Part shown: one piece after another, positions 43,562-57,896 of the stretch
How the letters are laid out: each line of letters begins with the position of its first letter
How positions within the stretch are numbered: position 1 is the stretch's first letter
Assembly (NCBI GenBank): GCA_017561865.1
Contig: JAFZBH010000045.1
Coordinates: 1 to 59,436 of the forward strand
DNA length: 59,436 nucleotides
Origin: Bacteroidales bacterium
GTDB lineage: Bacteria > Bacteroidota > Bacteroidia > Bacteroidales > UBA932
Reading direction: 5' to 3'
Notes under the pieces: model-generated
The model's input: the letters and a program-made list of their open reading frames with translations, nothing else
The model's database searches: none
Told to the model about the DNA's origin: nothing
Program-made: the position numbers and the translations under genes

Positions 43562-43636
43562 TTCCACCTCTATCCCTACACTTCCCCGCACTCCGGACGA
43601 TGCGTGATTAGTAAATGATTGATTATCAATAAAATC

Positions 43637-43675
43637 TGGAATCCGTGGTATCCAAAATAGGTGCCACGGATTCCA
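43637..43675. terminator. Shared hairpin terminator between tsaC and rsmE
   Basis: Perfect 12-base arms TGGAATCCGTGG and CCACGGATTCCA around a 15-base loop, between convergent genes. On minus it is followed by GATTTTATT, a modest T-run serving rsmE; on plus the tail TAATATC is weaker. Confidence 0.65.
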
Positions 43676-43693
43676 TAATATCGTCAGTTTCAA

Positions 43694-44545
43694 CTAGTTA
43701 CTTATCACGCAAAAATAGACTGCGGTGGCGGCCACGACCGCAGCGGTCTCCGTCCGCAGGCGGCTCTCGCCAAGCGACACCGGGATCCAGCAGTTCTCCC
43801 GGGCCAACGCCGCTTCTTCGGGACTGAAATCCCCCTCCGGCCCGATCAAGATCGCAATCGGCCGCGCTTCCGGCAGGCAGCTGCTGCCGCAAACCTTCGC
43901 TTCGCTCATCCCTCCCAAGCTGACGCTTGGGCCCCTCCCGTTTACGAAGCCACGGGTGGCTACGGGTTTGCCGGCAGCACTGCCTGCCGGATTAAGCGCT
44001 TCGGCCGATTGCAATACCTTGGTGATAGGTATTCGGGGGACATCGTCAAAGCAATAGCAGATGAGTTTAAGCGCATCGGCGGGAGCGGCGGCGATGAAGT
44101 CGCGGACCGAGACAGGCTCGGCGATCTGCGGAATGGCGGCTTTGAGCGACTGCTTGGCGGCGGAAAGCGCGAGGCGGCGCAGGCGGTCCGTCTTGAGGAC
44201 CTTGCGCTCCGAGCGCTCGCCGATCACCGGGGCGATCATATCCACCCCGATCTCCGTCACTTTCTCCACGAACCACTCGTAGCGGTCCAGATTCTTGGTC
44301 GGGCAGACCGCCATCGTCAGGTGATAGGGATGCGCGCCGAAACCGTGCTTGCGTTCCAGCACCCGCGCCCAGGCGCCCTTGGCGTCAGCGATCTCGAGCA
44401 CACAGCGGTAAAGCGTCCCGCGGCCGTCGATCACCGAGATCTCGTCGCCCTCGCGGTGCCGCAGCACGCGGACGCAGTGCGCGGACTCCTCCGGGTCCAA
44501 GCGGACCTGGGCGTCCTGGATGTCGTCAGAGAAAAACAGCTCCAT
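43694..44545 (-). CDS. rsmE: 16S rRNA m3U1498 methyltransferase, with an in-frame palindromic insertion
   Basis: 283 residues, longer than the usual 230-245 of the family. The N-terminal PUA-like part ELFFSDDIQDAQVRLDPEES and RVLRHREGDEISVIDGRGT and the SPOUT part (AVCPTKNLDRYEWFVEKVTE; ILIGPEGDFSPEEAALA; SLGESRLRTETAAVVA) are all intact. Between DDVPRIPITKVLQ and RPIAILIGPEGDF the family goes straight on. Here about 46 residues (183-228) intervene, including GRGPSVSLGGMSEAKV, encoded by a palindromic repeat element. The SAM-binding knot flanks are preserved, so the loop lies outside the active site and the enzyme is probably functional. It is followed upstream by radA on the same strand, 3 bases away. 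Confidence 0.9.
   Translation of the reverse strand: MELFFSDDIQDAQVRLDPEESAHCVRVLRHREGDEISVIDGRGTLYRCVLEIADAKGAWARVLERKHGFGAHPYHLTMAVCPTKNLDRYEWFVEKVTEIGVDMIAPVIGERSERKVLKTDRLRRLALSAAKQSLKAAIPQIAEPVSVRDFIAAAPADALKLICYCFDDVPRIPITKVLQSAEALNPAGSAAGKPVATRGFVNGRGPSVSLGGMSEAKVCGSSCLPEARPIAILIGPEGDFSPEEAALARENCWIPVSLGESRLRTETAAVVAATAVYFCVISN
43864..43999. repeat. Palindromic element inserted in frame in rsmE
   Basis: Arms at 43870-43895 and 43965-43990 (26 bases, 24 or so pairing with one bulge on each side) are flanked by GCGCTT / AAGCGC. The core holds CCCAAGC-TGAC-GCTTGGG and GCCAC-GG-GTGGC. The element at 57318-57480 shares this core but has a different arm sequence. In both genes the same frame is used, giving related peptides. 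Confidence 0.82.
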
Positions 44546-56617: not shown

Positions 56618-56691
56618 TTTTTTTGCAAAAATCTTTTTTCGCCTCGCTTGCAGGCTACTGCCGCCACGAATGTTCGCTTCGCTCACCTCGT

Positions 56692-56740
56692 GTCATTTCG
56701 AGCACCCCCTCTTGTCATTTCGAGCGCAGCGAGAAATCTC
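56692..56740 (+). repeat. Two intergenic copies of the 'gtcatttcgagc' repeat
   Basis: A short copy GTCATTTCGAGC at 56692-56703 and a long copy at 56714-56740 (GTCATTTCGAGCGCAGCGAG plus AAATCTC). The long copy matches the in-gene copy at 41548-41574 except for small changes and one missing base. Preceded by TTCGCTTCGCTCA (56673-56685), which also appears in the rsmE palindrome. Confidence 0.75.
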
Positions 56741-57182: not shown

Positions 57183-57896
57183 TTATGGATTTAAAGGGTT
57201 TTGTTTCCTTGAAAACTCACATCCGCACCAGTTCTGGTTGTAGAATCCCTGCTCCCGGATCACCTCGTTCCTCCGCTCCTGCAGCCCTCCTTTCCGCCAG
57301 TTCTGAGCCCAGAAGGCAACCGCTGCCTGCTCTGCTCCACTGCACGGCGGCTCGGGTCTGAAAACGTCCGGCTCTGCCGGACCCCTCCCATCTGACGATG
57401 GGCCCCTCCCTCTTACGATGCCGAGGGTGGCACGGTTTTCAGACCCGACCGCCGCTTCCGTTTCGCAGCAGGCAGTTGTTCCGGCGGCGTTGACCTGGTC
57501 AAGATCCTTCCAGCGGGAGGAAGCCAGGGTCGTGGCGAGGACGTGAAGGCCGCGGGAGGCGGCATATCGGGCGGCGCGGCCGAGGCGGAAGCGGAAACAG
57601 GCAGCGCACCTCGCCCCCCGTTCCGGCTCGTCCTCCAGCCCGCGGACGGCCGCCAGCCAGGCCTCGTGGTCATACTCGTCCGCCACCAGTTCGACACCCA
57701 TCAGTTCCGCATAGCGCCGCAGCTCCGACAGGCGCAGCTCATACTCCTCGCGCGGATAGATATTGGAATTGCTGAAGAACACGGTCGGGCGGATCCCACT
57801 TTCCCCCAGACACTCGAGGATGGCTCCGGAGCAAGGCGCGCAGCAGGCGTGCAGCAGGATTTCCCGGGCCCCGCCCGGCGCTTCGACCTTCAGCAT
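57183..57896 (-). CDS. queH: Epoxyqueuosine reductase QueH, with an in-frame palindromic insertion
   Basis: 237 residues, about 50 longer than the usual form. Cys motif LLHACCAPCSGA (Cys18, Cys19, Cys22), DEYDHEAWLAAVRGLEDEPE, CAACFRFRLG, LATTLASSRWKDLDQVNAAG, and the C-terminal NWCGCEF with two more Cys are all present. These bind the iron-sulfur and metal centre of the QueH fold. Between the LDQVNAAG block and WAQNWRKGGLQERRN an insert of about 54 residues (139-193), including RATLGIVRGRGPSSDGRGP, is encoded by the palindromic element. The Cys residues used for catalysis are outside it. The enzyme does the last step of queuosine synthesis in tRNA. Confidence 0.9.
   Translation of the reverse strand: MLKVEAPGGAREILLHACCAPCSGAILECLGESGIRPTVFFSNSNIYPREEYELRLSELRRYAELMGVELVADEYDHEAWLAAVRGLEDEPERGARCAACFRFRLGRAARYAASRGLHVLATTLASSRWKDLDQVNAAGTTACCETEAAVGSENRATLGIVRGRGPSSDGRGPAEPDVFRPEPPCSGAEQAAVAFWAQNWRKGGLQERRNEVIREQGFYNQNWCGCEFSRKQNPLNP
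57318..57480. repeat. Palindromic element inserted in frame in queH
   Basis: Inner arms 57346-57365 and 57435-57453 (about 19 of 20 bases pairing), outer pairs CTGCCTGCT (57323-57331) and AGCAGGCAG (57467-57475), and AAC/GTT at the ends. The core carries CCCATC-TGAC-GATGGG, GTCCGGC-TCT-GCCGGAC and GCCGA-GG-GTGGC-like hairpins. It corresponds in order to the rsmE element, with arms of different sequence. Confidence 0.82.

Follow-up and report, generated by a model that had tools for sequence, protein, structure and literature searches.

An in-frame palindromic repeat family with a covarying pseudoknot core in genes of Bacteroidales, probably a mobile element

What kind of DNA lies in frame inside two conserved genes, queH and rsmE, and has the same structured core in both? 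The window studied here, a stretch of 59,436 nucleotides, is contig 66 of the draft genome of a Bacteroidales bacterium (89 contigs, 1.58 Mb, 56% complete). An initial annotation had pointed out that positions 57383-57431 and 43910-43960 of the plus strand have in common CCCTCCCA, CTGACG, TGGGCCCCTCCC and GGGTGGC, and that the hairpin between these blocks reads CCCATC-TGAC-GATGGG in queH and CCCAAGC-TGAC-GCTTGGG in rsmE. The blocks and both hairpins are present as described, the best common block (43928-43960 and 57399-57431, family D20) being 33 nt at 85% identity, and the element lies on the minus strand in both genes (Table 1).

The reading frames of queH and rsmE run open through their inserts, as had been claimed, with the peptides GIVRGRGPS in QueH and GFVNGRGPS in RsmE, and the Pfam match of each protein falls in two stretches (for RsmE, PF04452, Methyltrans_RNA, at 8.5e-37, plus PF20260). 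Structures agree with this: PDB 9dco aligns with QueH residues 13-141 and 189-230 and PDB 3kw2 with RsmE residues 2-175 and 228-276, the insert lying in between in each case. The QueH insert is absent from 17 of 17 other aligned QueH sequences and the RsmE insert from 29 of 29 other aligned RsmE sequences, these being the ones aligned from 53 other genomes with RsmE matches; one of them (locus L196) has a different insert at that place. As RNA, 57318-57480 in queH folds at -97.3 kcal/mol (z -7.74) and 43865-44005 in rsmE at -80.4 kcal/mol (z -5.98), with no equally stable sequence among 200 shuffles of either. A covariance model, R1, built on eight copies that included the rsmE copy and excluded the queH copy, matched the two window copies with E of 2.2e-17 and 1.2e-12.

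Table 1. Positions of the two elements, their parts and their host genes in the window, with a candidate third copy.
Feature	Position	Strand	Remarks
queH, host gene (epoxyqueuosine reductase)	57183..57896	-	237 aa including insert; PF02677 at 4.3e-56, in two stretches
Whole queH element, with weaker outermost pairing CAACTGCCTGCT / AGCAGGCAGcGGTTG	57317..57478	-	wholly within queH
queH element, outer stem 5' arm	57435..57455	-	
queH H-type pseudoknot: S1 (T)GCC/GGC(A), S2 CCCTC/GAGGG, loop with CGTAA	57408..57431	-	
queH hairpin H2, CCCATC-GTCA-GATGGG	57387..57402	-	the hairpin of the initial annotation
queH AGGG(G) and third hairpin H3, GTCCGGC-AGA-GCCGGAC	57366..57386	-	
queH element, outer stem 3' arm, single bulged G	57345..57365	-	
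rsmE, host gene (RNA methyltransferase and RsmE PUA domains)	43694..44545	-	283 aa including insert
Whole rsmE element	43870..43990	-	wholly within rsmE
rsmE element, outer stem 5' arm	43965..43990	-	
rsmE pseudoknot: S1 AGCC/GGCT, S2 CCCGT/ACGGG	43937..43963	-	
rsmE hairpin H2, CCCAAGC-GTCA-GCTTGGG	43914..43931	-	
rsmE AGGG and H3 region, ATGAGC-GAA-GCGAA type	43896..43913	-	
rsmE element, outer stem 3' arm	43870..43895	-	
Candidate truncated third copy: 3' arm and H3, core lost	56650..56685	-	intergenic

The candidate third copy is probably a truncated remnant: it is 81% identical to the 3' arm and H3 of the rsmE copy (family D19) and is absent among the matches of the model. About 30 bases beyond it, 56716-56739 hold a different short palindromic sequence (CATTTCGAGCGCAGCGAGAAATCT), and an imperfect 48-base inverted repeat, 73% complementary, lies across the end of rsmE and the adjoining spacer at 43601-43711.

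The initial annotation had named two ways in which its reading could fail, that the genome held no further match and that the core was shared by chance within C/G runs of low complexity. Neither applies. The 11-base core GGGAGGGGCCC has 23 matches in the window's own genome and its reversed control 1; across the patterns used, real ones gave 19 to 23 matches there and controls 0 to 1. Many further copies are found, both within genes and between genes. Of 393 genomes of the order, 6, counting the own one, contain the pattern GGGAGGGGCCC-N8-38-GGGAGGG, control patterns giving none among the matches listed, and exact two-part matches number 1 to 36 per genome in 19 carrier genomes (control, 0). 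The model R1 is positive in 32 of 99 genomes of the family, again including the own one, with 1 to 43 copies each. Across the phylum it retained 1 genome of 345, namely the own one, under strict filters through which weak matches may drop out (15 of the own genome's 23 were retained). While the core is indeed rich in G and C, these counts and fold z-scores of -6 to -8 leave chance similarity in low-complexity sequence a negligible probability.

A scan of named genomes with the exact pattern found at least 119 stretches, and the 80 carrier titles listed among them are all Bacteroidales, Bacteroidaceae, Bacteroidia or Cryptobacteroides, many of them from rumen and gut. Viral contigs gave no match to the exact pattern, and plasmids and phages none to a single copy used as query. 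Rfam at its gathering threshold reported three tRNAs in the window and nothing on the element, and at E up to 1 over five loci it gave three weak sub-threshold matches, none on the element, so we rejected membership of a known Rfam family. The element was not found described in the titles and abstracts of the literature searched, which holds few subscription papers, and its pseudoknotted core was not found in Rfam or in that literature.

For comparison we assembled 143 copies, of which 19 come from the own genome, 4 from genome G028 and 120 from loci L046-L164. They were chosen by an exact pattern that fixes CG[T/C]RA, GGGAGGGGCCC and GGGAGGG, and this conditions the CCC/GGG of H2 and the R of CGTRA. 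Four own-genome matches (L002, L014, L015, L022) are long or cut variants outside the set; L022, L015 and L002 show a longer variant whose H2 is enlarged and which may represent an earlier or more complete form. In genome G457 (C5:68200-69100, L252), three near-identical copies stand in tandem at a spacing of 186-187 bases.

The element is roughly 110 to 160 bases long and consists of an H-type pseudoknot and two hairpins closed by an outer stem. On its own strand the order is 5' arm, CGT, pseudoknot, AGGGG, H2, AGGG, H3, 3' arm, and within the pseudoknot an S1 of about 4 bp and an S2 of 5 bp are separated by a single base, L1, usually a purine, with 0-3 bases and CGTRA after S2. The hairpin that the initial annotation had placed at the centre is thus part of the core as H2, but it is variable in length, and the pseudoknot and outer stem surround it. 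In the outer stem, which is about 25 bp long, the median number of Watson-Crick pairs is 25. At least 15 are formed in 126 of 135 copies (8 of the 143 were omitted because their flanks were too short), whereas arms taken from different copies reach this in 3 of 134 combinations. These pairs were counted copy by copy because MAFFT alone misregistered the outer arms; an earlier median of 37 pairs from duplex folding was inflated and is superseded. A single bulged base some 14-16 bp out in the 3' arm is frequent among the copies, and among bulged bases at all positions G is the commonest (39 of 97). The idea of a G-quadruplex role for the GGGAGGG runs was dropped, as most copies in genome G423 read GGGTGG and AGGAGGG. 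By eye, L012 has a hairpin with a 7-base direct repeat nested inside the pseudoknot, with the TrmB frame still open, and L004 and L016 have a GGGG(T)CCCCGCAAATC hairpin nested in H3.

The core keeps its fold while its sequence changes. Among the 141 copies in which the pseudoknot could be parsed (it failed in 2 of 143, and in a few of the others the parse is of low quality), S2 reads CCCGT/ACGGG in 63, CCCTC/GAGGG in 40, CCCAC/GTGGG in 14, CCCAT/ATGGG in 12 and CCCGC/GCGGG in 8, plus four single others, and the S1 types include AGCC/GGCT, GGCC/GGCC, CTGC/GCAG, TGCC/GGCA, AGAC/GTCT and AACC/GGTT. Covariation was measured on the 47 distinct cores among 113 of 139 copies that have a 4-bp S1, one spacer base and at least 3 S1 pairs, a selection that favours S1 pairing and not S2 pairing. 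In these, 99.1% of pseudoknot cells are paired (82.2% in shuffles), 75 cells are changed on both sides (17.7) and the covariation score is 0.502 (0.146), each value reached by 0 of 500 shuffles. The number of further pair types was reached by 1 of 500, and the number of double-changed pairs (5), one of the five measures, by 76 of 500. Sliding the partner columns by 1-3 positions lowers pairing to only 26-52%. Stem covariation across the further copies, which had been predicted, is above that of shuffles.

A second kind of dependence involves L1 and the R of CGTRA, which read G-G in 82 of 141 copies, A-A in 54, A-G in 3 and otherwise in 2. Both agreeing states are present within each of four S2 types (140 copies counted, by a slightly different parse). 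The sampling pattern fixes R to a purine; some copies in genome G449 read CGTTA with A at L1. Because neither G-G nor A-A is a Watson-Crick pair, the co-switch points to a contact between these two positions in the folded molecule.

In the own genome, 14 of the 19 main-set copies lie, free of stops, in 13 genes recognised by Pfam. The products are an RlmI-like methyltransferase, an FAD-dependent protein, a THUMP-like-domain protein (two copies), RibF, RecG, PcrA/UvrD, DsbD, TrmB, RNase R, an aminotransferase, DnaX, RsmE and QueH; the two copies in the THUMP-like-domain gene (L006) are both in frame and 651 bases apart. Over the whole set, 82 of 143 copies are covered by an open frame of at least 200 codons. 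From the 64 such frames in other genomes we drew 20 at random, of which Pfam recognised 17 at 1e-8. The copy is inside, between or next to conserved parts in 12 of these 17 (L111 and L102 being at a locus edge); in the other 5 it falls in the first 55 residues of the open frame, where it probably precedes the true start. One frame with no Pfam match, L096, is by its flanks an orthologue of the ribF copy.

The common reading frame noted at the outset holds for the queH and rsmE peptides but not as a rule, for the recognised genes show both orientations and five of the six registers. The sixth is closed by TAA or TGA in CGTRA, and, the count being one that selects open frames, its absence is partly by construction. 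The elements exceed shuffles in open frames by a small margin: those covered by a frame have 3.48 open frames each (2.97 in shuffles) and those without a covering frame 2.39 (2.25). Relative to the longest open frame, 35 of 135 copies have the same orientation and 45 the opposite, where not all frames are verified genes. Among the 61 copies without a covering frame, 15 have long frames abutting both sides, and reading these by eye (12 of the 61, near a locus edge, were left out) we recognised no split host gene, the frames reading as separate neighbours and L134 being ambiguous. We infer that the genic copies are translated, forming additional loops or linkers. Open frames at L014, L020 and L196 also contain the peptide-like repeats CHPERS, VIPSVVEGS and VIPGSDRES, the last in the RsmE of genome G422 (L196) at the same site as the window's insert, and these probably belong to another palindromic repeat.

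Comparison of loci between genomes indicates how copies change. Between genomes, 28 copy pairs, some of them sharing a copy, occupy matching sites, defined by matches of both flanks within 700 bases of both copies, so that the site need not be exactly the same in every pair; in 12 of these the core has opposite orientations relative to the flanks. The clearest case is L075/L148, whose flanks are about 95% identical and whose nearly identical core is flipped exactly between the arms. Other insertions are old and were kept across species with conserved cores (L008/L096; L054/L055/L142), while genomes G439, G449 and G454 have near-identical cores at many different sites. Three pairs first taken from flank distance as empty sites, L067/L005, L125/L092 and L075/L148, are in fact inverted or extended copies. 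At L125 an insertion of about 135 bp adjoins the copy: compared with L092, some 20 bp of the host gene, which we take to be ksgA, are followed by an inverted copy of themselves at the inserted repeat, as in a fold-back event.

Long ends (ATCCGCAAAATTACCCC and its complement) are common to many copies in genome G423, where they also enclose unrelated inserts of about 370 bp and short hairpins. This suggests that an enzyme acting in trans recognises the ends or, alternatively, that palindromes already present take up inserts at their tips. Loci L305-L319 of this genome have one end family (TCCGCAAAATTACC) around several unrelated palindromic inserts; a similar insert of about 370 bp occupies four of them (L315-L318), and L312-L314 hold an element variant with an enlarged H2 domain. 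No transposase gene lay between ends of this type among the matches listed.

The arms carry two further signals. Mismatches in the outer stem, read on the element strand, are G-T in 77 cases and A-C in 30 (two-sided binomial p 6e-6 if independent). The ratio is 26 to 11 in copies oriented as the longest frame, 23 to 7 in those opposite to it and 28 to 12 in copies with no long covering frame. As the G-T excess occurs in both orientations, the folded strand is probably the element strand, as RNA or single-stranded DNA, whatever the direction of the host gene.

The second signal is compensating change. Over 423 arm pairs in 18 matched copy pairs with both flanks at 76% identity or more, 325 pairs are unchanged, 27 changed on one side and 71 on both (16.9 expected if the sides were independent), and 67 of the 71 are still paired in both copies; the 12 non-overlapping matched pairs alone give 49 double and 19 single changes. 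In H2, matched pairs of equal length have 47 pairs unchanged, 7 changed on two sides and none on one. By eye, two copies in G439 (L265 and L272) have an identical core and differ at 5 of 23 arm positions, each difference being matched on the other arm. Such changes fit selection on the fold and also fit templating of one arm by the other, a mechanism put forward for other palindromes (PMC6649704). The initial annotation was right that the repeat is structured and covaries, but two copies, or the arms generally, are insufficient proof of selection, and because arm changes cannot decide the matter we argue for selection on the fold from the core and the mismatch bias. We dropped the claim that arms evolve faster than flanks. 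An ungapped count behind it (269 pairs, 66 double and 18 single changes, 27.9% per side) gave way to a shift-tolerant one of 20.0% per arm site, which against a mean flank divergence of 16.0% by BLAST local alignment gives no support; after this recount we also rated templating of one arm by the other, and copying by fold-back, slightly lower.

Taken together, a repeat family with a covarying fold, copies in both orientations and in frame, cores inverted between arms, and arms that differ between copies and are nonetheless complementary are all seen in the sequences. We consider the most probable explanation, and a likely one, to be a non-autonomous palindromic mobile element of about 110-160 bp, present in part of the Bacteroidales, whose core fold is kept by selection. 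The core would fold single-stranded, as RNA or DNA in the element's own sense, into the pseudoknot and two hairpins with the outer stem holding them; a putative enzyme acting in trans would recognise the folded core or its ends and move the element. Complementarity of the arms might be maintained by selection, by templated repair or by both, and copies inside genes would be translated and persist only where frame and protein function survive. Several points count against this explanation: the analysis turned up no mobilising enzyme, the copies examined gave neither a clean junction nor a target duplication, the matched sites included no exact empty site at high DNA identity, the old insertions with conserved cores could mean a host function, and one of the five covariation measures was reached by 76 of 500 shuffles. 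A RAYT/Y1 transposase finds no support as mobiliser, since its matches do not track the element: PF01797 (E <=0.001) is found in 14 of 16 pattern-chosen carrier genomes (not G450 or G453) and also in 5 of 6 genomes that have no R1 match.

The repeat might also act as RNA in host transcripts, in processing, stability or translation control, and be kept folded on that account. The G-T excess is on the element strand, and in some orthologous copies core and arms are preserved through compensating changes. Among these are L054, L055 and L142, about 40 bases upstream of a start in three species, before a gene we take from its translation to be gcvH, and L083 and L153, in two species between genes that we read, again from translation, as rnfC and rnfD. 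Orientation speaks against such a role, being near even (35 and 45 of 135) and differing in 12 of the 28 matched pairs, so the element RNA would often be missing from the message. The mismatch bias is equally present in opposite-strand copies and the recognised host genes are unrelated, and we regard a function in host transcripts as unlikely. Removal or skipping of the element by self-splicing, RNA excision or ribosome bypassing, leaving a protein free of the insert, would suit the strong fold, long closing stem and pseudoknot, and its hosts include, by Pfam, dnaX and ribF, which are essential in model bacteria. Yet the copies in recognised genes read through with no stop in five registers, no split gene was recognised among the 15 candidates, and copies in opposite orientation would present a different RNA; we rejected an intron or bypass element as its class and think excision very improbable.

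The repeat might instead be inert, in frame by tolerance, with its complementarity arising wholly by template switching between arms and no selection on the fold. The excess of two-sided arm changes (71 against 27), the fold-back event beside the copy at L125 and the concerted, perfect inverted repeats within genes of nematomorph mitochondria (PMC6649704) all favour this. The core does not fit it: two crossing helices of 4-5 bp covary, and a pair of positions with the same letter co-switches, which copying of a complementary arm could not produce. The mismatch bias of 77 to 30 is a further objection, and we judge pure template switching to be improbable. A more speculative extension of the mobile-element reading, which we put forward tentatively and with considerable doubt, is that the pseudoknot core is an active nucleic acid that spreads itself by fold-back copying. 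A strand of element plus flank would fold on itself and prime synthesis of the second arm, so that each new copy would get fresh complementary arms that might continue into target DNA copied in inverse orientation; the core could flip between the arms. If true, bacteria would harbour a hairpin-primed class of mobile element, tolerated within genes because most of its frames can be open.

Among known systems, REPs (GTAG/CGTC) are palindromic, occur in many copies and sometimes in genes, commonly in hosts of DNA synthesis and repair, and CGTC repeats are known from Bacteroidetes too (PMC3733652). The present element resembles them in palindromy, copy number and hosts such as dnaX, recG and pcrA/uvrD. 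REPs are, however, 20-40 bp long, a single 5-13 bp stem with GTAG or CGTC left unpaired at one end (PMC3733652), whereas this element is at least 110 bp, the letters after its CGT vary and pair in S1 so that no unpaired tag is present, and its occurrence does not track Y1 transposase matches; we rejected REP membership on size and tag. With MITEs it has terminal inverted repeats in common (the paired outer stems and the common ends in G423), and Correia elements are likewise short, with inverted-repeat ends and reported inversion (reviewed in PMC10969869). Unlike such MITEs, its terminal repeats vary between copies, and neither a target duplication nor a parent transposase was found for it. 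Perfect inverted repeats inside translated genes, evolving in concert, also occur in nematomorph mitochondria, but their arms encode native protein and, as described in PMC6649704, they apparently form no repeat family with a core.

The Rickettsia palindromic elements are described as repeats of 105-146 bp with a long stem-loop, found in frame within conserved protein genes and also between genes (PMC2229807, PMC10969869). By these descriptions, and not by sequence, the best reading is that the present element behaves like them, as a palindrome of about 105-150 bp with a long predicted stem-loop that inserts in frame in conserved protein genes. It differs in belonging to another phylum, in its covarying pseudoknot core with a non-pairing contact, in inversion between the arms and in arm sequences that vary between copies. 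Insertions of the Rickettsia type would then also occur in gut and rumen Bacteroidales, where housekeeping proteins carry inserts of about 40-50 residues that resemble mobile DNA, a caution for annotation, and a palindromic element of this kind would be able to contain a conserved pseudoknot. With the recent and old copies and the inversions collected here, it becomes possible to test how such palindromes move, and how much of their compensating change is due to selection and how much to templated repair.
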